A stretch of 64,000 bases of DNA from assembly GCA_949126835.1 (NCBI GenBank), contig OX421501.1, positions 1,427,554 through 1,491,553 on the forward strand, in the 5' to 3' direction. Source of the stretch: Anisus vortex. Its lineage: Eukaryota; Mollusca; Gastropoda; Planorbidae. The notes under the pieces are model-generated. The model worked only from the letters and a program-made list of their open reading frames with translations, was not told the DNA's origin and did no database searches. Positions 1 through 60,734 of the stretch are shown here, piece by piece. A program made the position numbers and the translations under genes. Position 1 is the first letter of the stretch. Every line of letters starts with the position of its first letter.

Positions 1-3000
1 CCAGTGTGTATTGATGTTATTGATGAAGCTTACATGACAAAATGTGGACATTCCTTTTGGTAAGGATTAGTGTTATCTTATTTTTATGATTAAGTATGTT
101 GTACATTGATTATGTTATCATGGCTATAAGTTTTCTTTAAGAAAGTATGCAATATTGAATGCTCTTCGTATAATTTAAAAAAAAAAAAAATTTAATAAGG
201 TTTTTCAAAATAGTTTTCCTTTAATTGGACTTTAAACAAAAAAATATGTTTTACCTACCTACAGCCGAGAGTGTATTGAGAAGAGTCTTGAGAGAAACAA
301 CCGTTGTCCTAAATGCAGCATCCCTATAGAGAACATTGGATCTATTTTTCCTAACTATGCATGTAAGTTGTTTCTGTTCATGAGTATAATGTTAACTTTT
401 GTTATTCCAAATGTTTTGGGGCACAGTGTCCGAGCTGGCCAACCTATGATCCTGGGTTCGAATCCTGGTGAAGGCTAGGACTTGTTCCCAGATTTTCAGG
501 GTTTCCATGAGTCTACACAGCTCTGATGGGTACCTGACATTGGTTGGGGTAAAGTTGGCAGGGCATTGTGCTGGCCTTGAAATCCCCTAGTGTGCCCCTA
601 ATGGATTAAATTGTTCCAACTGGATACTTTACTTTGCTCACTGTACTAGGCTTGCATAAGCACACATCACTTAAAATGCAAAACTTGATTGTTTTTCTGT
701 GTGTGTGTGTACCTTAGAAGTTCGATAATCCGGCACGTTTGGGACCGGCTCGATGCCGTACTACCAAAAATTCTGGTCTATCAGACGGTGCCCCTTCTTT
801 TTAGTGTAGGCTTTGCCGTAAAACAAATGTACTTTGTTTTTTTAACTACATACATACGTAAATCGTAATTATAAGAACAATTAGGTAAATAATTAAACTA
901 AAAATACAGTATGCAAATACAACAAAGTTTATTTTACATTTCATATAATGTATGTACACCTACTGTAAAACATATTTCACGTAGATTTTAAAAAGTTACG
1001 AATGTCTTTTTGTTTACTTGACTTTTGGCGTTTAGTATAAAATTTATTTATACCGAGCGCTTCCGGATGATCCCGAACTACCCCGAAAACTTCCGAATAG
1101 CTCTCGAGCGTTTTTATTTACTTTAAAGACACACTTTTGGAGAAAATCAAAATTTTTACAATTTTCTGGAGCTATGCCGGACTATCGGGCTTTCCGGACT
1201 GTTGGATGCCGGACTAATGGACTTCTACTGTATTTTAATTTGAAAATTTTAGTGACAGAACTAATCAGAAAGCATAAACTAGAGGAACAGAAGAATGTCA
1301 TAGTGAAGCAGATGAGTGTTCAGGAATGGCAGTGTCTGTCCCAGGACTGGGATCTCGGGGAAATCAACAACTTCATGTCCCTTCTTGTGCTCAGGAAGCA
1401 GCGTCTGGAGCAGGGGCTGAAAATTTCTGAGACCAAGATTCTGAAAAACTTTCTCGAAGAGGTGAAAAGCCGTAAAGAGAGGGTGAGAATATTTATAGTC
1501 TTTGTACATTTTCTCAATCCGACCCTTCTCCTTAATAGCACTTGTCATCTTGTCACATTTTGTCTTATTCTTTGTGGCCCTTATCCAAGGCAAGGCGGCT
1601 AGTCTCCCTTGTTCTTCACTTATTGTTAAGGCAGCTAGTCTCCCTTGTTCTTCACTTATTGTTAAGGCAGCTAGTCTCCCTTGTTCTTCACTTATTGTTA
1701 AGGCAGCTAGTCTCCCTTGTTCTTCACTTATTGTTAAGGCAGCTAGTCTCCCTTGTTCTTCACTTATTGTTAAGGCAGCTAGCCTCCCTTGTTCTTCACT
1801 TATTGTTAAGGCAGGTAGTCTCCCTTGTTCTTCACTTATTGTTTAGGAGGCTGGTCACCCCTGTTTTTCATCTAGGGTGGCCCTTATCCAAGCGGAAGAT
1901 TAGACTCTCTTCTTATTTTCACGGTCAATTTTTGATTATCATTTCTTTTACTTTTTGGTGTGTTTCCATTTTTCTTTTCCATATGTTTTAAAACCTATTT
2001 ATGAATGTTTATTATTTAATTAATGTTTAGTTCTTTCTGCTTATGGTGCATGAATAGGACAGTAGTGTTTGTTTTTGTGTATGCAGTTTTTTTAATCTAC
2101 CAACTCAGTGCCAATACTTCCATGTTGTCTTTCTCTGTTTCTCTTCCTCCTAGGAGCTGGAGAAAATACAATGTCAGCTCGACTTTTTAAGCCGGGATTG
2201 TCAAGCAGTTGGGGTAAGTTATATCCGTGTAACCAGTCAAACCTTGTTGTAGTAAATGAAGGGGAGAAATTCATTTGATATAACATCAATTACTGACATA
2301 CTCCTTTGGCGGCTGTTCTTTTAGTTGAAACTATGGGCTGGGTTTATGTGGGTTCGGAAAGTTTGGGAAAACTGACTTTTTTTTTTTGGTTTACCTGCGA
2401 GTTAAGGAATGTTTGTGAATGGTAAAATATTGTTAAAAAAATTAAAAGAAAAATATTTTTTTAAGGAGTCCTTAGCTCTTATAAGTTTTGTTTTCCTTTA
2501 AAATTATCTTAGAGCACTTTTCTTGAGCTGCAAGAGAACTGGAAAAAGTAAAAAAAAAAAATTTCTGCTACCTGTACACACTACTTGTTAACATTAAGGC
2601 AATTCACATATACCAGTAAACTATACACTGGTTTGTAAATTTATTGCCAAGTTTGGGAGTACGTAAATGATATCCTAGGTCAGCGGGGTCTGCAATCTAC
2701 GGCACGCGTGCCAGACTTGACACGCAGAGCGATTTTCAATGGCACCCGGAAGACCCTCAAAAAGACAATTCAAGTCTCCTCTACCAGAATATGATTGGTT
2801 GCGCAGGTTGACTCTTAGGCTGTTGGCACGCTGAATGAATTAGAAATCCTACTTCGGCACACTGTTATCAAAAGTGTACCAACCCCTGGCCTAGGGTAAG
2901 AGCCTTGAACTAAAATCCAGGTCTGATAAAGCCAGAATTTTCCCAGGGGTATGGGTGATTGGCTGGTTTTTTCCCTCAGTACAGGAGAATACATGCAGAA

Positions 3001-6000
3001 AGGGTTGACTGTTTATCTCAGTGTTAAGTTTGTAAAAAAACAATAATCTTTCTAGTGAAAGAAATGTGTACAGGTACTTAATGTCTGTTCAAATTTTATT
3101 TGTGCAGGAAACACTGAGGGACTTTGAACAGAAGCAGCTTGAATGTCCAGTAAGTTTAGCCATTTTAGGGAATATTATTTTAGATGTGTACATCTAAGTT
3201 TAGCCATTTTAGGGAATATTATTTTAGATGTGTACATCTAAGTTTAGCCATTTTAGGGAATATTATTTTAGATGTGTACATCTAAGTTTAGCCATTTTAG
3301 GGAATATTATTTTAGATGGGGACATCTAAGTTTAGCTATTTTAGAGAATATTATTTTAGATGTGTACATCTAAGTTTAGCCATTTTAGGGAATATTATTT
3401 TAGATGTGTACATCTAAGTTTAGCCATTTTAGGGAATATTATTTTAGATGTGTACATCTAAGTTTAGCTATTTTAGAGAATATTATTTTAGATGTGTACA
3501 TCTAAGTTTAGCCATTTTAGGGAATATTATTTTAAATGTGGACATCTAAGTTTAGCTTTTTTAGAGAATATTATTTTAGATGTGGACATCTAAGTTTAGC
3601 TATTTTAGAGAATATTATTTTAGATGTGTACATCTAAGTTTAGCCATTTTAGAGAATATTATTTTAGATGTGTATATCTAAGTTTAGCCATTTTAGGGAA
3701 TATTATTTTAGATGTGTACATCTAAGTTTAGCCATTTTAGGGAATATTATTTTAGATGTGTACATCTAAGTTTAGCTATTTTAGAGAATATTATTTTAGA
3801 TGTGTACATCTAAGTTTAGCCATTTTAGGGAATATTATTTTAAATGTGGACATCTAAGTTTAGCTTTTTTAGAGAATATTATTTTAGATGTGGACATCTA
3901 AGTTTAGCTATTTTAGAGAATATTATTTTAGATGTGTACATCTAAGTTTAGCCATTTTAGGGAATATTATTTTAGATGTGTACATCTAAGTTCAGCCATT
4001 TTAGGAAATGTAAACTAAACAAAAAAAAAATACACATTCAAATATACACATGGAAACATACACATCATGTTTTACACATCAAAAGATACACATCAAAATT
4101 TACACATCAAAACTTACACATCAAAATGTACACATTGAAATATCAACTATGAACTATATTCCCAGGATCACCTGGTGCCCAACTCTTCCTCCATGTTGAG
4201 TGTCGTTGGGTGTAGCAGCACAAGCTTAACCAACTCTGTGGCTTCCACCTCAGGGGAGACGAGCAGCGTCGGAAACTCCACCATACAAGTGTCTTTTGCT
4301 GGAGGAGCCATAGTTAGTTGATATGTTCTCTCTATATTTGTTACATCGTCTTCATTTGTTACATTGTCTTTAATGGTTACATTGCTGTATATTCAATGTG
4401 TGGGGTCATAGCCTTAGAGACTGTGTTTGTGTAGTGTGCTGTTAACTTTGAGCATGGTATGTGAATCTGTTCAGTTACACTCCACGAGAAGTCGTTTCTG
4501 TTTTGGTTTTGGTAGCGCTGTATTTCCTTTATTATGTTATTGGATATTGCTTCCAATACTAATCGAGCATCACTGTATTTCTCCTCCCCCCCCCCCCCCC
4601 CCACAACAAAGGCCAGACCTACAATAGACATGTCAGAGGCCAGAAAGAAACGGAAAGTCAGTCAGCACTTTGAAGACTTGGAGAAAGTTTACTTAGAGGA
4701 GAGGGGAGGCTTGGGGCTGGGTGAGTACACTGTTGATATCATTTTCCTTTTTTGAGAACTTAGAATATAGATTTTAGACTTAGGACCCTTTAAGGTCAAT
4801 TTTGTTTAGAACTTAGAATGTAGATTTTAGACTTAGGACCCTTTAAGGTCAATTTTGTTTAGAACTTAGAATGTAGATTTTAGACTTAGGACCCTTTAAG
4901 GTCAATTTTGTTTAGAACTTAGAATGTAGATTTTAGATTTAGGACCCTTTAAGGTCAATTTTGTTTAGAACTTAGAATGTAGATTTTAGACTTAGGACCC
5001 TTTAAGGTCAATTTTGTTTAGAACTTAGAATGTAGATTTTAGACTTAGGACCCTTTAAGGTCAATTTTGTTTAGAACTTAGAATGTAGATTTTAGATTTA
5101 GGACCCTTTAAGGTCAATTTTGTTTAGAACTTAGAATGTAGATTTTAGATTTAGGACCCATTAAGGTCAATTTTGTTTAGAACTTAGAATGTAGATTTTA
5201 GATTTAGGACCCTTTAAGGTCAATTTTGTTTAGAACTTAGAATGTAGATTTTAGATTTAGGACACTTTAAGGTCAATTTTGTTTAGAACTTAGAATGTAG
5301 ATTTTAGATTTAGGACCCTTTAATGACAATGAGGTTCTTGATTGCTGCTTGTGTTCAGATGGTGCGGCTAACTGACAACATATTTTTCCTTCGTATTTAA
5401 TATTATAATATAATAATATTTTTTCAATTTTACTCATTTGTTCTCCCCGTTACAGGTGGGGAAAGTGACGGAAGTCTTGACCAGTTCGCCACCTGTATGT
5501 CCAAGTTCTTGCAGTATACGTCCATCAAAGCCGTGGCCAGTCTAAACTACACTCACGAGGTCTTCACCAACAGTTCCTCCATTGTGTCTAGGTCAGTGTG
5601 CTTTCTGGCATGGAATGGGTTGCCTGAAAAAAACTAGGAACAATCAGTAACTTAGCATCATTTAATTAATTAAAATAATTAAAATGCAAGACCAGACTCA
5701 GACCTCACGGATAAGTAGGACACAAATAATTTTTTGTATAGAAGGAGCGTCTGTAGCATATAAGATAAGTCTAGGCATGATTTATCTATATGTTTTTTTT
5801 TTGTGTTCTGTTTTCAGTATCGAGTTTGACAGGGACTGTGAATTTTTTGCTATCGCTGGAGTGACCAAGAAAATTAAAGTTTTTGAGTACGGCATCGTGA
5901 GAGATGCTGTGGTTGACCTGCATTACCCTGTCACAGAAATGAGCTGCACTTCAAAAATTAGGTTTGGATTATTTTGTTTACATTTTAGTTTTACACATCA

Positions 6001-15000: not shown

Positions 15001-18000
15001 CATATTTCCCTGTGACACATAGCCTGTGACATATTTCCCTGTGACACATATCCTGTGACATATTTCCCTGTGACATATTTCCCTGTGACACATAGCCTGT
15101 GACATATTTCCCTGTGACACATAGCCTGTGACATATTTCCCTGTGACACATTGCCTGTGACACATTGCCTGTGACATATTTCCCTGAGACACATTGCCTG
15201 TGACACATTTCCCTGTGACACATAGCATGTGACATATTTCCCTGTGACACATTGCCTGTGACATATTTCCCTGTGACATATTCTCTGTGAGACATATTCT
15301 CTTTTGTTTTTTCTAGTTCAACAGACAGTCAGCTGAAACTGTGGAGTCTGGGGCGACACAATGCCATCTCAACATTTAAAGGCCACATAAACGAGAAGAA
15401 CTTTGTGGGTTTGGCAACCGATGGGGATTATATTGCATGTGGTAAGTGCATGTCATCAATTAGAAGATTACCGCTTCCTACACTTATCCTTATGGGGCAC
15501 AGCGCCTTTGACTGGCGATCCAAAGGTTCTGGGTTCAAATCCTGGTGGAGGCTAGGATTTTTTTCCCCGGGACTAGTGTGTGTCCCAGCTCTGATGGGTA
15601 CCTGACTTTAGTTGGGCATTGTGCTGGCCACACATCCCCTAGTATTTCGTGGCCACAGAAACTGGTGAATGCTGCTTCACCAGCCCTATGATCAGTTTGG
15701 TTCGAAGGATACTTGACTTACACTTATCCATAGTTGCGTCTAGTCTTTGCATTTTGTTTAAATGATGTTAAGTTTCTAGTATTCCTGATTCGTTCAGGTA
15801 ACCCAGTCAATGCTCATGTGCCACTCTGGAACAGAGAGTACTTACATGCATTTTTTCTTGCATGTGGGATAAGAAAAGTTTTTTCTTCTTACGTTTATTT
15901 GAGCCTTGTAATAGATTGTTATTGTGTTGTAATTCTAATGTTAGAATTGAATGCCCTATTACTACTTTGCTGTTTGCCCCTCTTACTGTTTCTAGGTTTA
16001 GTGATTTAACTATTGACGTTACTCTTGTCAGTAATGAGTATTCACTTGTAATGAACTTTTCAGTTATTTTCTGGATATTTTTTGAGGTTTTTAATGTTTT
16101 CTTAATACTTTTAAAAATGATGCTAATCTGTTGGCTTTCCTGGTTTGTTCAGTCAACCCCTTCCATGCCTGGTTACCACCGGAGAAGAAAGAGAACTTGT
16201 ACATATTAGTTTTTGCACATTCACATGGGATAAGAAAAGTTCTTTTTATCATTATGTCTATCTGAGTATTGTATTATATTACTGTTGGGCTTGTAAGATT
16301 GGTGATTTCTAATCACAGAATAAAGGGTTAAATATAACAGGATGCTCCTATTCCTTAAACCCATTCCCTACTGCTAATGCCTTCTTGTATCTGGAATTGT
16401 CACATTTATGGACCAGGTGTGACTCTTGGACCTCATCAACAGAGCCACTGGAAAAAATATTTAATAAAAAAAAAAAAAGTGAGTGCCCTAGTTGCCCAGT
16501 TTAGGGGGCTTAACTCTTGATGATGGGGCACTCTTGGCTGAGCGACAGCGCATTCGGCTGGTAAACCAAGTTTCCTGGGTTTGAATCCTGGTGAAGGCTA
16601 GGATTCGTTCTCAGGTCTGGAAGGTGTCTCTGAGTCTGCCCAGCTCTGATGGGTACCTGACTTTAGTTGGGGTAAAGTAAAGATGGCTGGGCATAGTACT
16701 GGCCACACAATCCCCCTATTTTGTTCAACGGGATACTTTACTTTACTCTTGATGGCTGAATGATAGGTCACACAAAAATGAAAATCTCATATGTTTACAC
16801 TGGGTTCTTCTGTGGGGAAGAATAGTGCATTTCTCAGTTATCTGAATTTTTTGAGCATGTAACTAATCAATTTGTAATTAGATCTATGCTGTAAACACAA
16901 GATTGACAATCTGTTTTAGTTGTCTGCACAGAAAAACTATTTTAACCATTAATAAAACAAAAAGGAAAACACTTGTCTCTGCAAACAATTGAAACAATAC
17001 TAAACATTATGCAGGGCTGCTGGACTAAATGCCTATATAGGACAATACAAGGGTTGACAAGGATGAGTTAATAGTTATTGGCAAGGATGAGTTAATAGTT
17101 GAAGATATTTCATTTATAATTATACATATACATTTTTTTTAGAAATTATCTGATATGAGAATATTATTACAAGAATAATATTAAAAAAGAACTGGGAGGT
17201 CAATGAAAACATAGTTACCCAAGGTGAGGAAAATGGCTTAGTAGGGAATGAGTTAAAATTACTTCCCAATGCATTCAGGTCAATGTCATTAATGGATTGA
17301 TTGTTTTCATTTTTTGCCGTCTGCAGGAAGTGAGAACAATTCTCTCTATCTGTACTACAAAGGTTTGTCCAGACATATTCTGACCTACAAATTTGAACCG
17401 GGTAAAAAGTTGATTGTGAGTAACTCTTTTTGTTGTTGTTTATGGTTAAAAAAATAATAATTTAAAATAGTTGCTTCCCTTTACTGTTTACAAATTTTAA
17501 ATCTGTAACTATGGAGATTTCTTGTTTCTGTGCACAGGAGAAGCCAGGAAAGGATGATGACTCTGCAGAATTTGTTAGTGCCGTCACATGGAAAGCTGTA
17601 AGTTGATATTTGAAATGGTTGATATTTTTATCGGCTTATAAATAATTAACAATAATCATCATCATCTGTCCTCTGGATTCCTTGAGGAGCACAGGGCCTC
17701 TGTCAAAGCGAGCCACTCTACACGGTCTCTTTGCCAGTTGCTTCAGTTCTTCCCAGCTCTTTCCAGCTCTTCCAGTTTCATCCAGTATGCTTCATCTCTA
17801 TGTTCGCTTGGGTCTTCCTCTGTGTTGTTGTCCCCAGGGGTTTCCACTCTAAGGCCTGCCTAGCTCTGTTGTTGCTATCTTTCAAGAGGGTGTCTCCAAT
17901 CCATCTCCACTTTCTTTAACAATAATAGTTCAGGTTCAATTATGGTTTTCAAAAATGTAGTCAAGTAATTTAACAGAAATTGTTTGCTGTACATATATTG

Positions 18001-19524
18001 TGTTTTTTTTTATCTTATAGTTATAATTTGTTTATTTTCAGGATTCCAATATTTTGGTAGCTGCCAACAGTCAAGGAGTCGTCAAGGTATGTTGGGAATG
18101 ACAAAATTTTGACCAAATCCATGCGGTAGTTTCATTTTCCTTAGCACTGCAATTTGCCAACATAGAATGAACCATAGTTGGTTGGGGGGATAGAGAAAAA
18201 TCATTAACTCACGACATTGTCAGATAACATTTTCCTGAATGAATTGAGTTTTTTTATATGTTAGATTAGATCCATCACAAATAAAAAAAAGAAAATCATA
18301 GCTGTCACATTTAAAAGGCCAGATTTCCTTCAGTATGGCAATCTGAGAGGTTTCCTGCAAGGACCACCATTTGAAATTTCCCATAATTCTTAAACATGAA
18401 CAGTTCAGTTCCCACCATGCTATGTTGCTCCATGTACTTTTAATTCACTTCAGAGAATTTCCCAAGGGACAATTTCTGTTGGTAAATGATGAGGCCTGAG
18501 TATACAATTTTCCCCCCGGTGTATTGAATATGAATATTTGTGCGTACTGTTTGCCGAATCGGGAGTACAAACCAAGAACTAGCATTCAGTCACCATCCAA
18601 TTAAAAGCTTATTCCTTTCATAATTTCCCCATTACCTTCCCTACTTCCCCTTACATGTACTGTTAGGACTTTGGTAAAAAATCAAGATTCAAAAGTGTAT
18701 TTACAAGTTTTAATATATTTGTTGAAAATACTAGCATTTATGCCCTCCAAAAAGGACGCAGAAACGTATGACTACAATTACAATATGTTTTACTAAAAGA
18801 ATAAAAAGAATCAAAAAGGAAGAAAGACAGAAAAAAAAAGAAGCAATAATAAGTTAAAGATTTGGCAGCCAGGGAAAACTTGGAAGGACCAAACCGCACA
18901 TAATTTGAAAGCATTTTTAAAGCGACATCACTCTGAATTTTTTTTAAATGGCGCTCTAGTTTATAACTTTAACATAATTAGTAATACATTTATATAAAAA
19001 AATATTTAATAAATTAGGTAAAATAGTTTATAAAAGAAAAATTTCTTTTGAAATTTCCAATTTATGTATTTAACTGTTGTCCTGATCTGTTTAACGACCC
19101 CGGAGTCTATAGAGAACATTTATATTGATATAAACAAACATGAACTCATGGTAATTATATATAGTTAAAATAATTTTAATTCTCATAAGATAAGATTACT
19201 TTATTGATCGAAATAAATGGAAATTTGACTGGATTACATAAATACCGTCTTTCAGCATATTTTTGAAACAATATTAAAGAACCATTTGTGCATGTTATTT
19301 GTCAATGACATTTGTGTGCATGTTATTTGTCAAGGGAAATGCTTCAGAAGAAGGGGGATAATCAGCAGAGGAGACTGTCAGAATGAGATTTCCACTCAGG
19401 CCTTATTACATGAACCATAATTCTTCTATAAGAGGCTTTTCTTGAATAAAAACAAAACTTAAACCAATTTTCCAATTTTAAAAGACATTTTACTCTCTAA
19501 TCACAGTTACTTGAGTTGGTTTAA
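1..19524 (+). CDS. COP1: COP1 E3 ubiquitin-protein ligase (5' partial, 18 exons in window)
   Basis: COP1 is a RING/coiled-coil/WD40 ubiquitin ligase that, by family knowledge, acts with DET1-DDB1-CUL4 and Trib proteins to degrade transcription factors. Exons: 1-59, 265-362, 1253-1482, 2154-2213, 3108-3149, 4166-4312, 4612-4720, 5456-5591, 5818-5961, 6501-6609, 8728-8809, 9829-9945, 13528-13645, 15317-15441, 17327-17415, 17538-17597, 18042-18086, then 19507-19524. They join in frame to 595 codons plus stop, matching the length from the RING to the C-terminus in vertebrate COP1. The first two exons hold the C3HC4 RING (TKCGHSFC, RCPKC); the first RING Cys is off-window. A coiled-coil segment follows (2154-3149), then a basic NLS-like RKKRKV (4612 exon) and WD40 repeats ([60 protein letters not shown]). 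The donor of the 4166 exon is uncertain (4312, or 4288; both keep frame). The last exon lies inside a tandem array, so the true 3' end could be any copy up to 26318. Confidence 0.95.
418..645 (+). mobile_element. tRNA-derived SINE, family A
   Basis: The head has a Pol III B-box-like GGGTTCGAATCCTGGTG, then the family-wide motif CAGCTCTGATGGGTACCTGA and the tail GGATACTTTACTTT. The same element recurs at least eight times in this window on both strands. It sits in the COP1 intron after 362. Confidence 0.8.
712..1230. mobile_element. pogo/Tigger-like MITE with TA target duplication
   Basis: The terminal inverted repeats are about 24 bp: the left end reads TTAGAAGTTCGATAATCCGG and the right end, reversed, CAGTAGAAGTCCATTAGTCC. 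The element is flanked by TA on both sides (710-711 and 1231-1232), as for Tc1/mariner-pogo insertions, and the CAGTAGAA start is the usual pogo/Tigger style. At 519 bp with no transposase it is non-autonomous. Its right end is only 22 bases upstream of the COP1 exon at 1253. Confidence 0.75.
1594..1846. repeat. 36-bp minisatellite, about 7 copies
   Basis: The unit is GGCAGCTAGTCTCCCTTGTT plus 16 further bases (CTTCACTTATTGTTAA). It lies in the COP1 intron starting about 110 bases after the donor at 1483. A GGCCCTTATCCAAG motif flanks both sides. Apparent ORFs across it are repeat artefacts. Confidence 0.9.
2681..2888. mobile_element. hAT-type MITE, short
   Basis: The ends are CAGCGGGGTCTGCAATCTAC and (reversed) CAGGGGTTGGTACAC, with CCTAGG on both flanks (an imperfect 8-bp target duplication). 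The interior, with repeated GGCACGC-type motifs, matches the element at 6915-7121 and the fragment near 63808. It is intronic in COP1. Confidence 0.6.
3151..4010. repeat. 44-bp minisatellite, about 19.5 copies, abutting a COP1 splice donor
   Basis: The unit is AAGTTTAGCCATTTTAGGGA followed by ATATTATTTTAGATGTGTAC and ATCT. The first copy starts within the donor of the exon ending at 3149 (GTAAGTTTAGCC). Later copies read TCTAAGTTTAGCC and so lack the GT. Variants include GCTATTTTAGAG and GTGGAC forms. Confidence 0.92.
4586..4602 (+). repeat. C17 homopolymer next to a COP1 splice acceptor
   Basis: Seventeen C bases form the pyrimidine tract before the AG at 4610-4611 of the NLS-bearing COP1 exon. 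Such runs are length-unstable. Confidence 0.8.
4756..5325. repeat. 53-bp minisatellite, about 10.7 copies
   Basis: The unit begins GAACTTAGAATGTAGATTTT, continues AGACTTAGGACCCTTTAAGG and ends TCAATTTTGTTTA. It starts 35 bases after the COP1 donor at 4721 and fills most of that intron. Confidence 0.92.
6176..6412. mobile_element. Two truncated SINE family A copies, head to head
   Basis: A + strand head (GGTCTAGGGGCAGCACATTT) runs into a reverse-strand body (GTGTGGCCAGCCCAATGCC) that ends with a reverse B-box, GGATTCGAATCCAGGACC. It is degenerate. It lies in the COP1 intron after 5961. Confidence 0.45.
6619..6845. repeat. 13-14-bp minisatellite (TATACAACTCTT)n
   Basis: About 17 copies of TTTATACAACTCT with small length changes start roughly 10 bases after the COP1 donor at 6610. 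Confidence 0.9.
6915..7121. mobile_element. hAT MITE with exact 8-bp target duplication
   Basis: The terminal inverted repeats are CAAGGGTCGGCAACCT and AGGTTGCCGACCCCTG. The 8-bp duplication GTCTAGTG is at 6907-6914 and 7122-7129. It is 207 bp with no ORF. This is the classic hAT signature, here in a COP1 intron. Confidence 0.88.
7432..7556. repeat. 21-bp minisatellite, 6 copies
   Basis: The unit is CTGCCTTGCATACCAATACA plus A. Because 21 is divisible by 3 it leaves all frames open, producing several spurious ORFs. It abuts the SINE family B fragment that starts at 7557. Confidence 0.9.
7557..7648 (+). mobile_element. SINE family B 3' fragment
   Basis: The sequence GCCACTGCAATTTATTCCAA followed by AGAGCGCACTAAGCATGCTA matches the 3' half of the elements at 11200-11421 and 28600-28885, ending in an (ATT)n tail at 7636-7648. 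A hAT element has inserted at the end of the tail. Confidence 0.65.
7649..8643. mobile_element. hAT MITE, 995 bp, exact 8-bp target duplication
   Basis: The ends are TAGGGATTGGCCGGATA and TATCCGGCCAATCCCTA. The duplication ATTATTAC is at 7641-7648 and 8644-8651. The subterminal regions are dense in CCGGAT and TCCGG motifs on both sides, likely transposase-binding repeats. The centre holds a 50-bp inverted repeat (8129-8235). No transposase ORF is present. Confidence 0.9.
8129..8235. repeat. Inverted repeat (about 50-bp arms) inside the hAT element
   Basis: The left arm starts TATACGTCACTTCAGAATCT and includes AAGATACTGAATAAGC in reverse; the right arm ends GATTCCGAAGTGACGTATA. The arms are separated by only a few bases and would form a long hairpin. 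Confidence 0.85.
9473..9712 (+). mobile_element. tRNA-derived SINE, family A
   Basis: It has the B-box GAGTTCGAATCCTGGTGATG, the body motif CAGCTCTGATGGGTACCTGA, and the tail GATGGGTACTTTACTT. It is intronic in COP1. Confidence 0.8.
10003..10675. mobile_element. piggyBac-like MITE with TTAA ends
   Basis: The left end is TTAACTCTTTATTTCCGGAT; the right end is GAGAGAAAGAGTTAA, so the termini are inverted and coincide with TTAA. A GGATCGACGAT motif recurs near the left end. No transposase is present. It is intronic in COP1. Confidence 0.6.
10827..13200. repeat. 47-bp minisatellite, about 46 copies, split by a SINE
   Basis: The unit begins TTTATGAATCTGTAATATAT, then TGGAACGTAATAGTAACATA and GAATGAA. 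Point variants (AATATA/AACATA, TTATG/TTAGG/CTATG) are scattered through it. A family B SINE interrupts it at about 11200-11421 and the array resumes directly after. It lies in the COP1 intron between 9945 and 13528. Confidence 0.93.
11200..11421 (-). mobile_element. tRNA-derived SINE, family B, inserted in the 47-bp array
   Basis: On the - strand the head reads TAGCGGTTAGATCACCGGAC with a B-box-like CGGGTTCTAGCCC, then CCCTGTCGCCCTGCAGGAGT, and a 3' end AGCATGCTAAAATAGCATGG followed by GCGCTATATAAGTAACC and an AT-rich tail. It matches 28600-28885. Confidence 0.78.
13860..13945 (+). mobile_element. SINE family B 3' fragment
   Basis: GCCACTGCAATTTACACCAA, then GGGCGCACTGAGCATGCTAA and ATAGCATGGATAGAAGCGCT, matching the 3' half of family B. 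Confidence 0.65.
14043..15300. repeat. 15-bp minisatellite family (CCCTGTGACATATTT / GCCTGTGACACATA)
   Basis: About 85 short units of two alternating types spread over 1.26 kb, ending about 15 bases before the COP1 acceptor at 15315-15316. The unit length keeps all frames partly open, so several Met-Ser-Gln-Gly-Asn repeat ORFs on the - strand are artefacts. Confidence 0.9.
15490..15718 (+). mobile_element. tRNA-derived SINE, family A, with 11-bp target duplication
   Basis: It is flanked by TACACTTATCC at 15479-15489 and 15719-15729. The head is GGGGCACAGCGCCTTTGACT, the B-box GGGTTCAAATCCTGGTGG, and the body CAGCTCTGATGGGTACCTGA. The exact duplication shows insertion by target-primed reverse transcription. 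Confidence 0.88.
16355..17256. mobile_element. piggyBac-like MITE with TTAA ends and a nested SINE
   Basis: The left end is TTAAACCCATTCCCTACTGC; the right end, reversed, is TTAACTCATTCCCTACTAAG. A family A SINE sits inside at 16525-16750. A GGATGAGTTAATAGTT motif is doubled near 17062-17100. Intronic in COP1. Confidence 0.6.
16525..16750 (+). mobile_element. tRNA-derived SINE, family A, nested
   Basis: GGGGCACTCTTGGCTGAGCG head, B-box GGGTTTGAATCCTGGTGAAG, body CAGCTCTGATGGGTACCTGA. It lies within the TTAA-ended element. Confidence 0.8.
17657..17916 (-). mobile_element. RTE-like LINE 3' end, 5'-truncated, with 11-bp target duplication
   Basis: Read on the - strand it encodes a decayed reverse-transcriptase tail ([27 protein letters not shown]) followed by a (GAT)n tail, a pattern typical of RTE-type non-LTR elements. 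Flanks TTAACAATAAT at 17646-17656 and 17917-17927 are exact. There are stop codons downstream. Intronic in COP1. Confidence 0.78.
18087..19476. other. Last COP1 intron before the terminal-exon array
   Basis: About 1.4 kb of AT-rich DNA with no exon, transposon end or array I can recognise. A short CATTTGTGTGCATGTTATTTG-type repeat occurs near 19290-19335. Confidence 0.5.
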
Positions 19525-22500
19525 AAGACATTTTACTCTCTCTTCACAGTTGCTGGAGTTGGTTTAAAAGACATTTTCCTCTCTCTTCACAGTTGCTGAA
19601 GTTGGTTTAAAAGACATTTTACTCTCTCTTCACAGTTGCTGGAGTTGGTTTAAAAGACATTTTACTCTCTAATCACAGTTACTTGAGTTGGTTTAAAAGA
19701 CATTTTACTTTCTCTTCACAGTTACTTGAGTTGGTTTAAAAGACATTTTCCTCTCTCTTCACAGTTGCTGGAGTTGGTTTAAAAGACATTTTACTCTCTA
19801 ATCACAGTTACTTGAGTTGGTTTAAAAGACATTTTACTTTCTCTTCACAGTTACTTGAGTTGGTTTAAAAGACATTTTCCTCTCTCTTCACAGTTGCTGG
19901 AGTTGGTTTAAAAGACATTTTACTCTCTCTTCACAGTTACTTGAGTTGGTTTAAAAGACATTTTCCTCTCTCTTCACAGTTACTTGAGTTGGTTTAAAAG
20001 ACATTTTCCTCTCTCTTCACAGTTACTGGAGTTGGTTTAAAAGACATTTTACTCTCTCTTCACAGTTGCTGGAGTTGGTTTAAAAGACATTTTACTCTCT
20101 CTTCACAGTTACTGGAGTTGGTTTAAAAGACATTTTCCTCTCTCTTCACAGTTGCTGGAGTTGGTTTAAAAGACATTTTACTCTCTCTTCACAGTTACTT
20201 GAGTTGGTTTAAAAGACATTTTCCTCTCTCTTCACAGTTACTTGAGTTGGTTTAAAAGACATTTTCCTCTCTCTTCACAGTTACTTGAGTTGGTTTAAAA
20301 GACATTTTCCTCTCTCTTCACAGTTGCTGGAGTTGGTTTAAAAGACATTTTCCTCTCTCTTCACAGTTGCTGGAGTTGGTTTAAAAGACATTTTACTCTC
20401 TCTTCACAGTTGCTGGAGTTGGTTTAAAAGACATTTTACTTTCTCTTCACAGTTACTTGAGTTGGTTTAAAAGACATTTTCCTCTCTCTTCATAGTTGCT
20501 GGAGTTGGTTTAAAAGACATTTTACTTTCTCTTCACAGTTACTTGAGTTGGTTTAAAAGACATTTTCCTCTCTCTTCACAGTTGCTGGAGTTGGTTTAAA
20601 AGACATTTTACTCTCTCTTCACAGTTACTGGAGTTGGTTTAAAAGACATTTTCCTCTCTCTTCACAGTTGCTGGAGTTGGTTTAAAAGACATTTTCCTCT
20701 CTCTTCACAGTTACTTGAGTTGGTTTAAAAGACATTTTACTCTCTCTTCACAGTTACTTGAGTTGGTTTAAAAGACATTTTACTTTCTCTTCACAGTTGC
20801 TGGAGTTGGTTTAAAAGACATTTTCCTCTCTCTTCACAGTTGCTGGAGTTGGTTTAAAAGACATTTTACTCTCTCTTCACAGTTACTTGAGTTGGTTTAA
20901 AAGACATTTTCCTCTCTCTTCACAGTTACTTGAGTTGGTTTAAAAGACATTTTCCTCTCTCTTCACAGTTGCTGAAGTTGGTTTAAAAGACATTTTACTT
21001 TCTCTTCACAGTTACTTGAGTTGGTTTAAAAGACATTTTCCTCTCTCTTCACAGTTGCTGAAGTTGGTTTAAAAGACATTTTCCTCTCTCTTCACAGTTA
21101 CTTGAGTTGGTTTAAAAGACATTTTCCTCTCTCTTCACAGTTGCTGAAGTTGGTTTAAAAGACATTTTCCTCTCTCTTCACAGTTACTTGAGTTGGTTTA
21201 AAAGACATTTTCCTCTCTCTTCACAGTTGCTGAAGTTGGTTTAAAAGACATTTTACTTTCTCTTCACAGTTACTTGAGTTGGTTTAAAAGACATTTTACT
21301 CTCTAATCACAGTTACTTGAGTTGGTTTAAAAGACATTTTACTCTCTAATCACAGTTACTTGAGTTGGTTTAAAAGACATTTTACTCTCTAATCACAGTT
21401 ACTTGAGTTGGTTTAAAAGACATTTTACTCTCTAATCACAGTTACTTGAGTTGGTTTAAAAGACATTTTACTCTCTAATCACAGTTACTTGAGTTGGTTT
21501 AAAAGACATTTTACTCTCTAATCACAGTTACTTGAGTTGGTTTAAAAGACATTTTACTTTCTCTTCACAGTTGCTGGAGTTGGTTTAAAAGACATTTTAC
21601 TCTCTCTTCACAGTTGCTGAAGTTGGTTTAAAAGACATTTTACTCTCTAATCACAGTTACTTGAGTTGGTTTAAAAGACATTTTACTCTCTCTTCACAGT
21701 TACTTGAGTTGGTTTAAAAGACATTTTACTTTCTCTTCACAGTTGCTGAAGTTGGTTTAAAAGACATTTTACTCTCTAATCACAGTTACTTGAGTTGGTT
21801 TAAAAGACATTTTACTCTCTCTTCACAGTTGCTGAAGTTGGTTTAAAAGACATTTTACTCTCTCTTCACAGTTACTTGAGTTGGTTTAAAAGACATTTTA
21901 CTTTCTCTTCACAGTTGCTGAAGTTGGTTTAAAAGACATTTTACTCTCTAATCACAGTTACTTGAGTTGGTTTAAAAGACATTTTACTCTCTCTTCACAG
22001 TTACTTGAGTTGGTTTAAAAGACATTTTACTCTCTCTTCACAGTTGCTGAAGTTGGTTTAAAAGACATTTTACTCTCTAATCACAGTTACTTGAGTTGGT
22101 TTAAAAGACATTTTCCTCTCTCTTCACAGTTACTTGAGTTGGTTTAAAAGACATTTTACTCTCTCTTCACAGTTGCTGAAGTTGGTTTAAAAGACATTTT
22201 ACTCTCTAATCACAGTTACTTGAGTTGGTTTAAAAGACATTTTCCTCTCTCTTCACAGTTACTTGAGTTGGTTTAAAAGACATTTTACTCTCTCTTCACA
22301 GTTGCTGAAGTTGGTTTAAAAGACATTTTACTCTCTAATCACAGTTACTTGAGTTGGTTTAAAAGACATTTTACTTTCTCTTCACAGTTACTTGAGTTGG
22401 TTTAAAAGACATTTTACTCTCTCTTCACAGTTACTTGAGTTGGTTTAAAAGACATTTTACTTTCTCTTCACAGTTACTTGAGTTGGTTTAAAAGACATTT

Positions 22501-25500
22501 TACTTTCTCTTCACAGTTACTTGAGTTGGTTTAAAAGACATTTTACTCTCTCTTCACAGTTACTTGAGTTGGTTTAAAAGACATTTTACTCTCTCTTCAC
22601 AGTTACTTGAGTTGGTTTAAAAGACATTTTACTCTCTCTTCACAGTTGCTGAAGTTGGTTTAAAAGACATTTTACTCTCTCTTCACAGTTACTTGAGTTG
22701 GTTTAAAAGACATTTTACTTTCTCTTCACAGTTGCTGAAGTTGGTTTAAAAGACATTTTACTCTCTAATCACAGTTACTTGAGTTGGTTTAAAAGACATT
22801 TTACTCTCTCTTCACAGTTGCTGAAGTTGGTTTAAAAGACATTTTACTCTCTCTTCACAGTTGCTGAAGTTGGTTTAAAAGACATTTTACTCTCTCTTCA
22901 CAGTTACTTGAGTTGGTTTAAAAGACATTTTACTTTCTCTTCACAGTTACTTGAGTTGGTTTAAAAGACATTTTACTCTCTCTTCACAGTTACTTGAGTT
23001 GGTTTAAAAGACATTTTACTCTCTCTTCACAGTTACTTGAGTTGGTTTAAAAGACATTTTACTCTCTCTTCACAGTTGCTGAAGTTGGTTTAAAAGACAT
23101 TTTACTCTCTCTTCACAGTTACTTGAGTTGGTTTAAAAGACATTTTACTTTCTCTTCACAGTTGCTGAAGTTGGTTTAAAAGACATTTTACTCTCTAATC
23201 ACAGTTACTTGAGTTGGTTTAAAAGACATTTTACTCTCTCTTCACAGTTGCTGAAGTTGGTTTAAAAGACATTTTACTCTCTAATCACAGTTACTTGAGT
23301 TGGTTTAAAAGACATTTTACTTTCTCTTCACAGTTACTTGAGTTGGTTTAAAAGACATTTTACTCTCTCTTCACAGTTACTTGAGTTGGTTTAAAAGACA
23401 TTTTACTCTCTAATCACAGTTACTTGAGTTGGTTTAAAAGACATTTTACTTTCTCTTCACAGTTGCTGGAGTTGGTTTAAAAGACATTTTACTCTCTAAT
23501 CACAGTTACTTGAGTTGGTTTAAAAGACATTTTACTTTCTCTTCACAGTTGCTGAAGTTGGTTTAAAAGACATTTTACTCTCTAATCACAGTTACTTGAG
23601 TTGGTTTAAAAGACATTTTACTTTCTCTTCACAGTTGCTGGAGTTGGTTTAAAAGACATTTTACTCTCTCTTCACAGTTGCTGGAGTTGGTTTAAAAGAC
23701 ATTTTACTTTCTCTTCACAGTTGCTGAAGTTGGTTTAAAAGACATTTTACTTTCTCTTCACAGTTGCTGAAGTTGGTTTAAAAGACATTTTACTTTCTCT
23801 TCACAGTTGCTGAAGTTGGTTTAAAAGACATTTTACTCTCTAATCACAGTTACTTGAGTTGGTTTAAAAGACATTTTACTTTCTCTTCACAGTTGCTGGA
23901 GTTGGTTTAAAAGACATTTTACTTTCTCTTCACAGTTGCTGAAGTTGGTTTAAAAGACATTTTACTCTCTAATCACAGTTACTTGAGTTGGTTTAAAAGA
24001 CATTTTACTCTCTAATCACAGTTACTTGAGTTGGTTTAAAAGACATTTTACTCTCTAATCACAGTTACTTGAGTTGGTTTAAAAGACATTTTACTCTCTA
24101 ATCACAGTTACTTGAGTTGGTTTAAAAGACATTTTACTTTCTCTTCACAGTTGCTGAAGTTGGTTTAAAAGACATTTTACTCTCTAATCACAGTTACTTG
24201 AGTTGGTTTAAAAGACATTTTACTTTCTCTTCACAGTTGCTGAAGTTGGTTTAAAAGACATTTTACTCTCTAATCACAGTTACTTGAGTTGGTTTAAAAG
24301 ACATTTTACTTTCTCTTCACAGTTGCTGAAGTTGGTTTAAAAGACATTTTACTCTCTAATCACAGTTACTTGAGTTGGTTTAAAAGACATTTTACTCTCT
24401 AATCACAGTTACTTGAGTTGGTTTAAAAGACATTTTACTCTCTAATCACAGTTACTTGAGTTGGTTTAAAAGACATTTTACTTTCTCTTCACAGTTGCTG
24501 AAGTTGGTTTAAAAGACATTTTACTCTCTAATCACAGTTACTTGAGTTGGTTTAAAAGACATTTTACTTTCTCTTCACAGTTGCTGGAGTTGGTTTAAAA
24601 GACATTTTACTCTCTAATCACAGTTACTTGAGTTGGTTTAAAAGACATTTTACTCTCTAATCACAGTTACTTGAGTTGGTTTAAAAGACATTTTACTTTC
24701 TCTTCACAGTTGCTGAAGTTGGTTTAAAAGACATTTTACTCTCTAATCACAGTTACTTGAGTTGGTTTAAAAGACATTTTACTTTCTCTTCACAGTTGCT
24801 GGAGTTGGTTTAAAAGACATTTTACTTTCTCTTCACAGTTGCTGAAGTTGGTTTAAAAGACATTTTACTCTCTAATCACAGTTACTTGAGTTGGTTTAAA
24901 AGACATTTTACTTTCTCTTCACAGTTGCTGGAGTTGGTTTAAAAGACATTTTACTCTCTCTTCACAGTTGCTGGAGTTGGTTTAAAAGACATTTTACTTT
25001 CTCTTCACAGTTGCTGAAGTTGGTTTAAAAGACATTTTACTCTCTCTTCACAGTTACTGGAGTTGGTTTAAAAGACATTTTACTCTCTCTTCACAGTTAC
25101 TGGAGTTGGTTTAAAAGACATTTTACTCTCTCTTCACAGTTGCTGGAGTTGGTTTAAAAGACATTTTACTCTCTCTTCACAGTTACTGGAGTTGGTTTAA
25201 AAGACATTTTACTCTCTCTTCACAGTTGCTGGAGTTGGTTTAAAAGACATTTTCCTCTCTCTTCACAGTTGCTGGAGTTGGTTTAAAAGACATTTTCCTC
25301 TCTCTTCACAGTTGCTGGAGTTGGTTTAAAAGACATTTTCCTCTCTCTTCACAGTTGCTGGAGTTGGTTTAAAAGACATTTTCCTCTCTCTTCACAGTTG
25401 CTGGAGTTGGTTTAAAAGACATTTTACTCTCTCTTCACAGTTACTGGAGTTGGTTTAAAAGACATTTTACTCTCTAATCACAGTTACTTGAGTTGGTTTA

Positions 25501-26324
25501 AAAGACATTTTCCTCTCTCTTCACAGTTACTTGAGTTGGTTTAAAAGACATTTTCCTCTCTCTTCACAGTTGCTGGAGTTGGTTTAAAAGACATTTTCCT
25601 CTCTCTTCACAGTTGCTGGAGTTGGTTTAAAAGACATTTTCCTCTCTCTTCACAGTTGCTGGAGTTGGTTTAAAAGACATTTTCCTCTCTCTTCACAGTT
25701 GCTGGAGTTGGTTTAAAAGACATTTTCCTCTCTCTTCACAGTTGCTGGAGTTGGTTTAAAAGACATTTTACTCTCTCTTCACAGTTGCTGGAGTTGGTTT
25801 AAAAGACATTTTACTCTCTAATCACAGTTACTTGAGTTGGTTTAAAAGACATTTTCCTCTCTCTTCACAGTTGCTGGAGTTGGTTTAAAAGACATTTTCC
25901 TCTCTCTTCACAGTTGCTGGAGTTGGTTTAAAAGACATTTTACTCTCTCTTCACAGTTGCTGGAGTTGGTTTAAAAGACATTTTACTCTCTAATCACAGT
26001 TACTTGAGTTGGTTTAAAAGACATTTTCCTCTCTCTTCACAGTTACTGGAGTTGGTTTAAAAGACATTTTACTCTCTCTTCACAGTTGCTTGAGTTGGTT
26101 TAAAAGACATTTTACTCTCTCTTCACAGTTACTGGAGTTGGTTTAAAAGACATTTTCCTCTCTCTTCACAGTTGCTGGAGTTGGTTTAAAAGACATTTTC
26201 CTTTCTCTTCACAGTTGCTGGAGTTGGTTTAAAAGACATTTTACTCTCTCTTCACAGTTGCTGGAGTTGGTTTAAAAGACATTTTACTCTCTAATCACAG
26301 TTACTTGAGTTGGTTTAAAAGACA
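19477..26324 (+). repeat. 43-bp minisatellite of 159 units, each containing a COP1 terminal exon (acceptor + LLELV-stop)
   Basis: The array holds 159 units of 43 bp plus an 11-bp end repeat, exactly 6848 bp. Each unit reads: stop codon region TTTAAAAGACA, a pyrimidine run (TTACTCTCTCTTCACAG or close variants) ending in AG, then 18 bases coding Leu-Leu-Glu-Leu-Val-stop. This completes the conserved COP1 C-terminus (LELV) from the exon ending at 18086, in phase 0. Coding variants are TTACTTGAG, TTGCTGGAG, TTACTGGAG and TTGCTTGAG (all LLE) and TTGCTGAAG (LLK). The AG acceptor was kept in all copies I read; one copy has TAG instead of CAG (20491-20495). The 11-mer TTTAAAAGACA occurs at 19477-19487 in the intron flank and at 26314-26324 overlapping the last stop, so the first duplication may have arisen by slippage between these direct repeats. 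No candidate LELV exon exists outside the array. Confidence 0.95.
26301..26318 (+). CDS. COP1: Alternative COP1 terminal exon (last copy in array)
   Basis: This is the last of the 159 copies: acceptor CAG at 26298-26300, then five codons (LLELV) and TAA. It joins in phase 0 to the exon ending at 18086 exactly like the first copy at 19507. Downstream sequence leaves the repeat at 26325. Splicing to this copy would give a 3'UTR free of the array, whereas splicing to the first copy would put about 6.8 kb of repeat into the 3'UTR. Sequence alone cannot say which copy is used. Confidence 0.55.
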   Translation, partial: LLELV

Positions 26325-26860
26325 GCACAGGTTAACACAAGAAATAAGAAAAAAAAACTCAACTTTTAAAAAAATCTTATGGACAACTTGTTGAGAAGTC
26401 CATGGGGAGGATTGCGCATGGGGGCTCGTGGACTCGAGTCAGCTGAATACCAGGAGATGAGTAGTGTGTGTGTTTGATGGTGGCATTTCGGATATTCAGA
26501 CAGGGAGAAAAGATAAAAGGAAAAAAATTGTTTTGCCTTAACAAAAGTAAAAAAAAAAACTCTCTTGTTGCTGTGATTTCTGAGGCATGGCTTGAATGGC
26601 AGGAAATTTCAATGGCATTATACTAACTCTTACATAGGTGAGAAATATAATTCTATATATATACACAGGTAACTTGTAATAGTCACATACACATCTGTCC
26701 TTCTTCATCCTTGTGTGTTTAATTCTTTGTACTATTCCATTTGGTTTTATTGTCACATTCATTTGGAAAATTCTTTCATTCATTTGTCATTGAAATTTGC
26801 ATATCATTGATTGTGCTTTTATTTGCTCATCATTCATCATCTTCTGTTTGCTTATCATTT
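26325..26860 (+). other. COP1 3' flank / probable 3'UTR
   Basis: This is unique AT-rich sequence after the array. It has no ORF I can support and no AATAAA on the + strand before 27314. Confidence 0.4.
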
Positions 26861-27215
26861 ATTTGTTTTCTAATGGCTTATCATTCATTGTTTATTATTT
26901 GCTTATCATTCATTGTTCATTGTTTATTATTTGCTTATAATTCATTGTTTACTATTGGCTTATCATTCATTGTTTATTATTTGCTTATCATTCATTGTTT
27001 ATTATTTGCTTATAATTCATTGTTTATTTTTTGCTTATCATTCATTGTTTATTTTTTGCTTATCATTCATTGTTTATTTTTTGCTTATCATTCACTGTTT
27101 ATTTTAAGCTTATCATTCATTGTTTATTATTTGCTTATCATTCATTGTTTATTTTTTGCTTATCACTTATCATTCATTGTTTATTATTCACTTATCATTC
27201 ATTGTTTTCTATTTG
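26860..27215. repeat. 25-bp minisatellite (TTATCATTCATTGTTTATTA TTTGC), about 14 copies
   Basis: Most units contain TTTATT, that is AATAAA on the - strand, between the convergent COP1 and GTF2H4 genes. ORFs over it (Leu-Ile-Ile-His-Cys runs) are repeat artefacts. Confidence 0.85.
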
Positions 27216-27313
27216 CTCATGATAATTTTTTTTTTTATCATTCACTTTATATCATCCACTATGTTGTATCAACTTTGTATCATTCAGTTGTTTACCAAAA
27301 CGGGTCTTGGAAA

Positions 27314-27319
27314 AATAAA
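27314..27319 (+). terminator. Candidate COP1 polyadenylation signal AATAAA
   Basis: This is the first clear AATAAA on the + strand that I found after the end of the terminal-exon array, about 1 kb past the last stop codon. The 43-bp unit itself contains no AATAAA. The assignment is by position only. Confidence 0.35.
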
Positions 27320-29775: not shown

Positions 29776-30320
29776 AACATCATTAATTCTCTTGTCTGTG
29801 AAATTTTCTTAGACCATCATTAATTCTCTTGTCTGTACAGACTAAATGAAATTTTCTTAGACCATCATTAATTCTCTTGTCTGTACAGACTAAATGAAAT
29901 TTTATTAGACCATCATTAATTCTCTTGTCTGTACAGACTATATGAAATTTTCTTAGACCATCATTAATTCTCTTGTCTGTACAGACTAAATGAAATTTTC
30001 TTAGACCATCATTAATTCTCTTGTCTGTACAGACTAAATGAAATTTTCTTAGACCATCATTAATTTTCTTGTCTGTACAGACTATATGAAATTTTCTTAG
30101 ACCATCATTAATTCTCTTGTCTGTACAGACTATATGAAATTTTATTAGACCATCATTAATTCTCTTTTCTGTACAGACTAAATGAAATTTTATTAGACCA
30201 TCATTAATTCTCTTGTCTGTGAAATTTTCTTAGACCATCATTAATTCTCTTGTCTGTACAGACTAAATGAAATTTTCTTAGACCATCATTAATTCTCTTG
30301 TCTGTACAGGCTAAATGAAA
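29776..30320. repeat. 48-bp minisatellite, about 11 copies
   Basis: The unit is ACCATCATTAATTCTCTTGT, CTGTACAGACTAAATGAAAT, TTTCTTAG. Two copies lack the 11-base TACAGACTAAA segment. Intergenic. Confidence 0.9.
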
Positions 30321-31387
30321 TTTTGTTCAGGCCATCATTTTACAGCATACTTTGAATTAATTCAAAGTTGTGTTAGGAAAGTTCTTGTTTTTTAAATTTT
30401 TTTTTCTTGGAAGTACTGTTAGGATTCTAGAAGCCAAATTACAAAATGGCTTCAATTTTTTTTTTTTTTGTGTGAATGTGTATAAATCAATATTCTATTC
30501 TTTATTTACAATCTGCTGAGGGGCCAGGTGTTGCCCTTAGCAACCAATTACTTTTTTTTGTTTTTATTTTCATGATTCATTCATCACAGAGTTAAAAACC
30601 TGACTTCTGTCATAAATTTTCATGATTCTGTCATCACAGAGTTAAGTTTATTTTCATCTTTTGTATTTCTACTCTTTTCTCTTTGTTTACATTTCAGTCT
30701 GTATTTATTGATTTATTTATTGATTTTACATGACATGAATATTTCTTTGTTATATGTTTGTTGATGCTTGAAGTAAATGAAAATTGATTTTTTTTTTACT
30801 TACATGATTATTGAAATTGTGGAACAAGCGTAAGGAATGCTTAATGAATTTAAAACTTTCATTTTTTTAAATATTATTATTGAGATCAATAAAAAAAATA
30901 TCTATAATTTGTTTAATTAAAATAAGGTGTGGTTTTGTGTTTACACGTGTATGTGTGTGCTATGTTTTCATCTGTACGTGCGTGCTGTGTTTACACGTGT
31001 ATGCTGTGTTTACAGGTATGTGTACTTGCTGTGTTTCCACATGTAAGTGAGTGCTATATTTTCATGTGTACGTGCGTCCTTCGTTTACACGTCTATGTTT
31101 GTGCGTTGCTATAAACACACCATTTATGTGAACATGTATCACTGGACTTGAAACACAGAGACTTGCTTGACTTTTCTTTTCAATAAAAACTTATTGAGAT
31201 GAAGTAAATTGACAATTTTGTTGAGAGAAGTTAAACAAGTTCTTTTCCTCCTATCACTTTGAGCGGAGAGATTGCTTTGGCTGGGAGTAATTTTGTTGAA
31301 ATAAGGGAATAATTTTGTTGAAATAAGTTAATTTTTTTTCAACCACAATCTAGTCATAAAATTAAAACTCTCAAATTTGACATTTGG
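30321..31387. other. Intergenic AT-rich DNA, nothing recognised
   Basis: A GT/AC-rich patch with repeated GTGTTTACACGTGTATG motifs occurs at about 30930-31110. No supportable gene. Confidence 0.4.
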
Positions 31388-60415: not shown

Positions 60416-60734
60416 ATATAAACGGGAAGTGTTTTAGAACCTTAATAAAATTTCATTGGTCAGTATAATAAAACTAGAAGTTAGAACTACACATTCCGAA
60501 ACACCCACAGATCAATATGCTATATAAAACAAAAAAGGAAAAGATTGGGCACTGCAACAAACTATTTTTAAATATGTTAGGGAAAGCCTCCAAGTTACTA
60601 CTATTTCAAAACCTGAACCCATATAAAGTAATTTTTGTTTTAAGAAAATTTTATTTGGCCAAAGGAATTATTCCTCCTTTAAAATTTAATTAACATATAA
60701 GTGGTAGCTTAGTTTAATTTGTAATAAAGAAACA

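Follow-up and report, generated by a model that had tools for sequence, protein, structure and literature searches.

The COP1 gene and the need for a tiny last exon

The stretch analysed here (hereafter the window) comprises 64,000 nucleotides of the Anisus vortex genome, C10:1427554-1491553, on a 44-Mb contig, ~1.4 Mb away from one of its ends, in an assembly of 863 Mb and 159 contigs. It carries nearly the whole of a gene for the E3 ubiquitin ligase COP1 (RFWD2), together with a 43-bp minisatellite in which every unit holds a candidate for the last coding exon of that gene. Exon 1 of COP1 lies upstream, exon 2 is cut by the start of the window, and 16 further exons follow inside it. The layout of the gene, based on searches with a COP1 protein of B. 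glabrata (P0001) and on the splice sites and frame of the joined exons, is as follows.

L046:9060-9178: COP1 exon 1, upstream of the window in the assembly
1..59, + strand: COP1 exon 2 (RING part; first base just before the window); tblastn with P0001, assembled frame
265..362, + strand: COP1 exon 3 (RING); tblastn, assembled frame
1253..1482, + strand: COP1 exon 4; tblastn, assembled frame
2154..2213, + strand: COP1 exon 5; tblastn, assembled frame
3108..3149, + strand: COP1 exon 6; tblastn, assembled frame
4166..4312, + strand: COP1 exon 7; tblastn, assembled frame
4612..4720, + strand: COP1 exon 8; tblastn, assembled frame
5456-5591, 5818-5961, 6501-6609, 8728-8809 and 9829-9945, + strand: COP1 exons 9-13 (WD40); splice sites, frame
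13528-13645, 15317-15441, 17327-17415 and 17538-17597, + strand: COP1 exons 14-17 (WD40); splice sites, frame
18042..18086, + strand: COP1 penultimate exon, 15 residues, phase 0; donor AAG|GTATGT
18087..19506, + strand: last intron to the first candidate acceptor, 1420 nt
19477..26324, + strand: 43-bp minisatellite, 159 units + 11 bp; Tandem Repeats Finder (TRF), slicing, pattern search
19507 + 43k (k = 0..158), + strand: candidate acceptors
19507..19524, + strand: first of 159 candidate terminal coding segments (LLELV*)
26301..26318, + strand: last of 159 candidate terminal coding segments (LLELV*)
26325..27319, + strand: presumed 3' untranslated region (3'UTR) to the first downstream AATAAA (27314-27319); holds a 25-bp minisatellite, 26795-27217

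The joined exons make up an open frame of 635 aa, which each of the 159 candidate acceptors completes, 128 of them with LLELV* and 31 with LLKLV*. This frame is 89.4% identical to B. glabrata COP1 over 635 aligned positions (P0001 is labelled RFWD2 and has 634 aa; the alignment runs end to end) and 88.6% identical to a Bulinus truncatus protein (P0002) whose record is labelled coatomer subunit alpha, yet which is COP1-like over its whole sequence. Within the WD40 part the identities are 96.8% to B. glabrata, 96.0% to Bulinus truncatus and 94.2% to Physella. They mark the animal as a mollusc that, of the homologues listed, stands nearest to planorbid snails, and most likely as a planorbid other than B. 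glabrata. An initial annotation of this DNA had named the gene COP1, and the WD40 part bears this out by matching the solved COP1/RFWD2 chain 5hqg, which we take to be human, with an E value of 3.7e-153 in an alignment that reaches the last residue. RING, middle region and COP1-type WD40 part follow one another in a collinear full-length frame, the architecture of the COP1 ligase. As judged from this frame, the gene is COP1 and is otherwise intact. A search of the assembly with P0001 gave 13 matches at the COP1 locus and six weak ones on other contigs, the latter confined to the RING part (residues 28-112), in a search for which the shortest exons, including the last ones, are too short to be detected; COP1 appears to be single-copy in the 863-Mb assembly.

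The termini of homologous proteins define what should follow the exon that ends at 18086. Among the best 120 of 2757 homologues, which are mostly from vertebrates, 119 reach the end of the protein and 118 have a scorable C-terminal pentapeptide; E occupies the third place of that pentapeptide in all 118, and 118 of the 119 end in xLExx. The eight closest relatives among the matches listed are heterobranch snails and slugs, five of which end in K-LLELV, one in K-LLELM and one in K-LLELI; the eighth, Lymnaea model P0004, stops one exon early. The sole exception among the 119 is a cod model (P0070) with other residues directly after the same K, a divergence that fits the presence of a very small last exon in other animals. 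These two public gene models of COP1, from cod and Lymnaea, miss or mangle the tiny last exon. The intron position directly after the K is probably old, and, by this comparison, the exon ending at 18086 needs a final exon of about five codons. The units of the array encode E in the third place in 128 cases and lack it in the 31 that read LLKLV. A search for transcript-derived fragments with the C-terminal 115 aa gave 310 matches, the best 120 of which include no close snail sequence (top listed identity, 73%).

To find candidates for such an exon we used a liberal pattern, in which AG is followed by codons for hydrophobic, hydrophobic, charged or polar, hydrophobic, and hydrophobic or Ala residues and then by a stop. 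The pattern matched 159 times on the + strand, every time inside the array, and had no match outside the array on that strand or anywhere on the - strand of the 64-kb window; sixty simulated first-order Markov sequences, each 57,152 bases long, contained it 0.33 times on average on one strand (0.0 for a strict form). A true last exon elsewhere in the window is rejected by these counts, in line with the initial annotation, which had seen no other terminal exon there. Across the whole 863-Mb assembly, the core of acceptor, coding sequence and stop occurred with at most two mismatches 159 times forward, 0 times in reverse and 0 times for a control (the whole assembly was counted; places are listed for the first 100 of the 159, and all 100 are in the array). 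As this count equals the array's own 159, a near-identical last exon elsewhere in the assembly is rejected as well. So is a dispersed satellite inserted at COP1, since the array matches listed all lie at the COP1 locus, 40 of 2565 first-look candidates having been scored in one search, and the whole assembly counted, with 100 of 159 places listed, in the other. In the same assembly, the 501-base 3' flank (26300-26800) is found at one place, and the part of the last intron from 19000 to 19476 is unique except for a dispersed repeat of ~105 bp (19185-19290). That repeat is found at many places on several contigs, with 86-93% identity among those scored, and may be a short mobile element. The counts support the array as the only candidate terminal coding exon, both in the window and, for near-identical sequence, in the assembly; a more diverged five-codon duplicate elsewhere in the genome could not be excluded.

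The 43-bp array as a series of candidate acceptors

TRF and direct slicing agree on the anatomy that the initial annotation had given for the array at 19477-26324. Its 6848 bp are 159 x 43 + 11, in a fixed register with no indel anywhere (TRF: period 43, 159.3 copies, 93% matches, 0% indels). Each unit consists of an intron end with a pyrimidine tract and AG, the last five codons and the stop TAA, and in 159 of 159 units, again as claimed, the AG and the six codons are in phase with the exon ending at 18086. The tract ends in CACAG in 158 units and in CATAG in one. Eight of the 43 columns vary, giving 15 full-length unit types; one variant allele is a singleton, and each of the others occurs in at least 31 units. 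The commonest type has 40 copies and includes both the first and the last unit. The types stand in patchy order, the longest repeated block of types being eight, and units two to four places apart share their type with a frequency of 0.23-0.24, where 0.12 would be expected; neighbours are thus more alike than random units, as is expected under local tandem turnover. An 11-bp repeat, TTTAAAAGACA, stands at both ends of the array, and the stop codon TAA overlaps it.

With head-to-tail units in the range of 10-100 bp and with unit variants, the array is a minisatellite; with many AGs and tracts behind one donor, all in frame, it is also a tandem 3' splice-site array of 159 candidate sites. Because the period of 43 is not a multiple of three and each unit contains a stop, the array holds no additive protein frame. 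A long hidden reading frame across it was rejected, the longest open stretch being 42 codons on the + strand and 21 on the - strand.

We scored acceptors with a rough weight matrix made from the 16 COP1 acceptors of the window, whose leave-one-out scores have a median of 6.4 and range from -11.6 to 13.9. The acceptors of the array score 6.4-10.9, compared with that median of 6.4 for the 16 other COP1 acceptors, and the best of the 78 AGs of the preceding intron scores 4.0. As donors, the GTs of the array reach at best 2.3, versus 5.3-11.5 for 14 real COP1 donors (two of the 16 were left out for wrongly set exon ends). Neither AATAAA nor ATTAAA occurs inside the array, and the first AATAAA past it, at 27314, lies 7807 bp from the first acceptor and 1013 bp from the last. 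Since the array offers no strong donor and no poly(A) hexamer, the part of it downstream of a chosen acceptor should stay in the message as 3'UTR.

The copies are not strictly equivalent, and in this respect the initial annotation, which had spoken of about 159 equivalent acceptors, does not hold. The pyrimidine tract is broken by AA in 40 of the 159 units, those of the commonest type, which have the lowest acceptor scores, and K replaces the E of the homologues in the 31 LLKLV units. The latter lie mostly in the middle of the array: the first 38 units hold 3 of the 31, and the last 30 hold none. As extreme a distribution is reached by 7 of 159 circular shifts, and the borders were picked after looking, so that this pattern does no more than hint at a greater importance of the array ends. 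CTCTCT, a pyrimidine motif bound by PTB-type proteins, occurs 206 times in the array versus 1.9 expected from the rest of the window, an excess that follows from repeating one tract 159 times.

Origin, use and rival explanations

The explanation that we consider best, and very probably correct as a whole, is that an intact and apparently single-copy COP1 gene has the array as its live terminal exon, that the 11-bp repeat seeded the array and that one unit of the array is spliced. Ancestral COP1 would have had a single tiny terminal coding exon of five codons and a stop. The duplicated segment would have taken in the final part of the last intron and everything up to and including the stop codon, with the 11-bp direct repeat at its borders, and slippage or unequal exchange between the two copies of the 11-mer, followed by further expansion, would have brought the number of units to 159. 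This is the simplest route, though an inferred one, as any array ends in some partial unit; if 158 units were taken away, intron and 3'UTR would be separated by one ordinary terminal exon. Each unit is self-sufficient in acceptor, codons and stop, and any copy number of at least one would yield a C-terminus of normal length. Expansion could therefore run on, and the gain or loss of a unit would presumably be nearly neutral.

In use, the donor at 18086 would be joined to one unit, the units upstream of it would be removed as intron, and those downstream would remain in the message, adding up to 6.8 kb of 3'UTR ahead of a poly(A) site past the array. Mainly early units would be used, with some scatter, since they are transcribed first and splicing is co-transcriptional. 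Splicing from the donor to the array is the only reading we found that would give COP1 its normal end, and we infer from the sequence that the cell may truly choose among ~159 sites, even though use could be confined to the first or last copies. Several points weigh against this explanation. Between the array and 45.9 kb, 39 of 1123 AGs score at least as high as the weakest array unit, so that strength alone does not single out the array, and it is the in-phase codons that do. Late units would have the advantage over early ones if the terminal exon were defined by its poly(A) site. The K of 31 units, set against E in 118 of 118 homologues, speaks against all copies being equally good. Finally, AATAAA occurs in the last intron at 18280, 18800, 19008, 19212 and 19445, which makes earlier polyadenylation possible.

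A use of the last unit or units only is a tentative alternative, improbable on balance yet the likeliest of the rivals considered here. It supposes that the terminal exon is defined from the poly(A) site and that the array is a long intron of decoy acceptors, and it predicts a short, constant 3'UTR. The position of the first AATAAA, 1013 bp past the last acceptor as compared with 7807 bp past the first, would suit it, as would the last 30 units being free of LLKLV copies; the latter is weak evidence, given the circular shifts and post hoc borders described above. Against it, the acceptor of the last unit belongs to the type with the lowest score (CTAATCACAG), and 158 acceptors with equal or better scores are transcribed before it. 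There is a smaller chance, and we regard it as unlikely, that the array has been selected for a function in RNA, in which CUCUCU-type pyrimidine tracts in the 3'UTR, their load differing from one COP1 mRNA to the next, attract PTBP- or U2AF-like proteins, so that COP1 output is tuned by copy number and acceptor choice. The 206 CTCTCT motifs are what such a function would call for, but that count comes automatically with 159-fold repetition of an acceptor. The homogeneity of the array points the same way: its 6.8 kb are free of indels and show a single singleton allele, a lower number per kb than that of seven of 12 compared arrays, the other five having none (the 12 are our own selection from the TRF list, and one of them, 52917-53333, is probably out of register). 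Homogeneity is, however, also expected of an array that is recent or evolving in concert, and another array of the window consists of 27 identical copies.

It is very improbable that the copy number, which comes from one assembly, or the array itself is an assembly artefact and that the animal has one or few copies. Assemblies are known to be prone to error in long tandem arrays, but this one comprises 15 unit types in patchy order, with local similarity and a longest repeated type block of eight; it lies inside a 44-Mb contig of a 159-contig assembly, with a 3' flank that occurs once in that assembly, and introns of the same gene hold other arrays of like period. We give hardly any credence to a last account, in which the array is a dead intronic relic and COP1 reads into its last intron, ending in VVKVCWE* with a poly(A) site there. 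The frame does stay open past 18086 for VCWE before a stop, and the five AATAAA of the last intron would serve such an end. Against this, the donor GTATGT at 18087 is intact, the xLExx end is kept in 118 of 119 homologues that reach the end (the cod model being the exception), and a relic would hardly retain 159 intact units of acceptor, codons and stop, except in the case of a very young array.

Beyond the explanation that we prefer, in which one unit of a live array is spliced, lies a stronger version that we think doubtful, namely that each pre-mRNA picks among the ~159 acceptors near-randomly and that the result is a regulated ladder of 3'UTRs from ~1 to ~8 kb in 43-nt steps. One main protein would be made, and the spread would be set by copy number, polymerase speed and pyrimidine-tract binding proteins. 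If this were true, the gene would serve as a natural molecular ruler for the choice of splice sites, and the output of an important ubiquitin ligase would be under a control that copy number can tune.

Parts of this arrangement have counterparts elsewhere. For the antifreeze glycoprotein gene of Antarctic notothenioid fish, derived from trypsinogen, the amplification of a 9-bp segment that overlaps an acceptor splice junction has been described (PMC9122973). The COP1 unit, which spans tract, AG and codons, is likewise an amplification across an acceptor junction. In the antifreeze case the repeats became protein-coding repeats in a new gene, whereas the 43-bp unit keeps its acceptor and stop, its repeats are alternatives and not additions, and the protein is hardly changed. 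The units of D4Z4 are far larger than 43 bp. In the D4Z4 macrosatellite, which holds DUX4, the same coding piece is present in each tandem unit and the poly(A) site comes from DNA past the last repeat (PMC2965761). The COP1 array resembles that description in that its units share one coding piece and the poly(A) site would lie in the flank; it differs in that each D4Z4 unit is described as holding the whole frame of a retrogene, while a COP1 unit holds five codons and a stop, with the other exons single-copy outside. Among NAGNAG-type tandem acceptors and tandemly duplicated exons, several neighbouring acceptors compete for one donor. There the sites number two or a few, as compared with 159 at a period of 43 bp in COP1, where each site gives nearly the same protein end and has its own stop. 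In unit length, head-to-tail order, patchy variants and the presence of similar neighbours in the same gene, the array is like ordinary minisatellites or variable number tandem repeats. Unlike them, its unit holds the host's exon boundary, last codons and stop, and no single-copy version was found in the assembly. In the literature that we searched, which covers few subscription journals, we found no gene described as having a minisatellite for its terminal exon, and the initial annotation had known of no such gene either. Minisatellites and alternative acceptors are each known; their combination on this scale is without described precedent in that literature.

COP1 of A. vortex would thus be a conserved gene whose sole terminal coding exon is a minisatellite. 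It would offer a natural test, in the animal, of how the spliceosome chooses among near-identical 3' splice sites: the first transcribed, that with the best tract or that nearest the poly(A) site. It suggests that repeats can grow without breaking a gene when every copy brings acceptor, codons and stop. It also predicts that the last exon of COP1 will be missing or wrongly placed in gene annotations and in the mapping of short RNA reads.

Surrounding repeats and other features of the window

Minisatellites with a period of 10 or more and at least 3 copies make up 26.7% of the window (17,115 of 64,000 bases), or 18.0% without the COP1 array (10,267 of 57,152), as compared with 4.6% elsewhere in the assembly (9,148 of 199,800 bases in a sample drawn from 20 places, spread over 9 contigs). 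This excess over the assembly sample marks the COP1 region as a place where such repeats grow, and one of the locally growing repeats would have happened to include an exon boundary. Among 56 arrays with a period of at least 20 and at least 3 copies, taken from the window and the assembly sample, four have a consensus acceptor score of at least 6.4 on either strand; the COP1 array ranks top, by a matrix from the same gene. Of eight intronic arrays, five lie within 30 bp of an exon versus a mean of 2.7 by chance (P 0.02), but P rises to 0.53 with a limit of 15 bp and to 0.15 with one of 60 bp, and a crowding of minisatellites at COP1 splice sites is not convincing. One array (3150-4009, 44 bp x 19.5) starts inside a 5' splice site, that of the COP1 exon whose last base is 3149 (CCA|GTAAGTTTAG); its later copies have C for G in the TRF consensus, and hence the GT is not repeated.

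Other arrays lie further downstream. At 29799-30339, a 48 bp x 11.5 array has an acceptor-like tract in its consensus, TTCTCTTGTCTGTACAG, with a best unit score of 8.4 over both strands and with no gene recognised alongside. At 60734-61708, a 36-bp unit is present in 27 copies, all identical, and this array is very young or strongly homogenised.

Known RNA genes were rejected, Rfam giving 0 matches at gathering thresholds and ARAGORN 0, and the 43-bp unit had 0 matches in viral contigs. Downstream of COP1, at 45940-57408 on the + strand, there are pieces that, judged by their translations, would belong to a putative Xaa-Pro dipeptidase (PEPD) gene. A perfect 105-bp tandem duplication (50950-51159) contains an acceptor-like TTTTGATAG followed by an open stretch. 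On the - strand, at 62427-62849, an open stretch resembles, by eye, the end of the reverse transcriptase of a non-LTR (long terminal repeat) retrotransposon.

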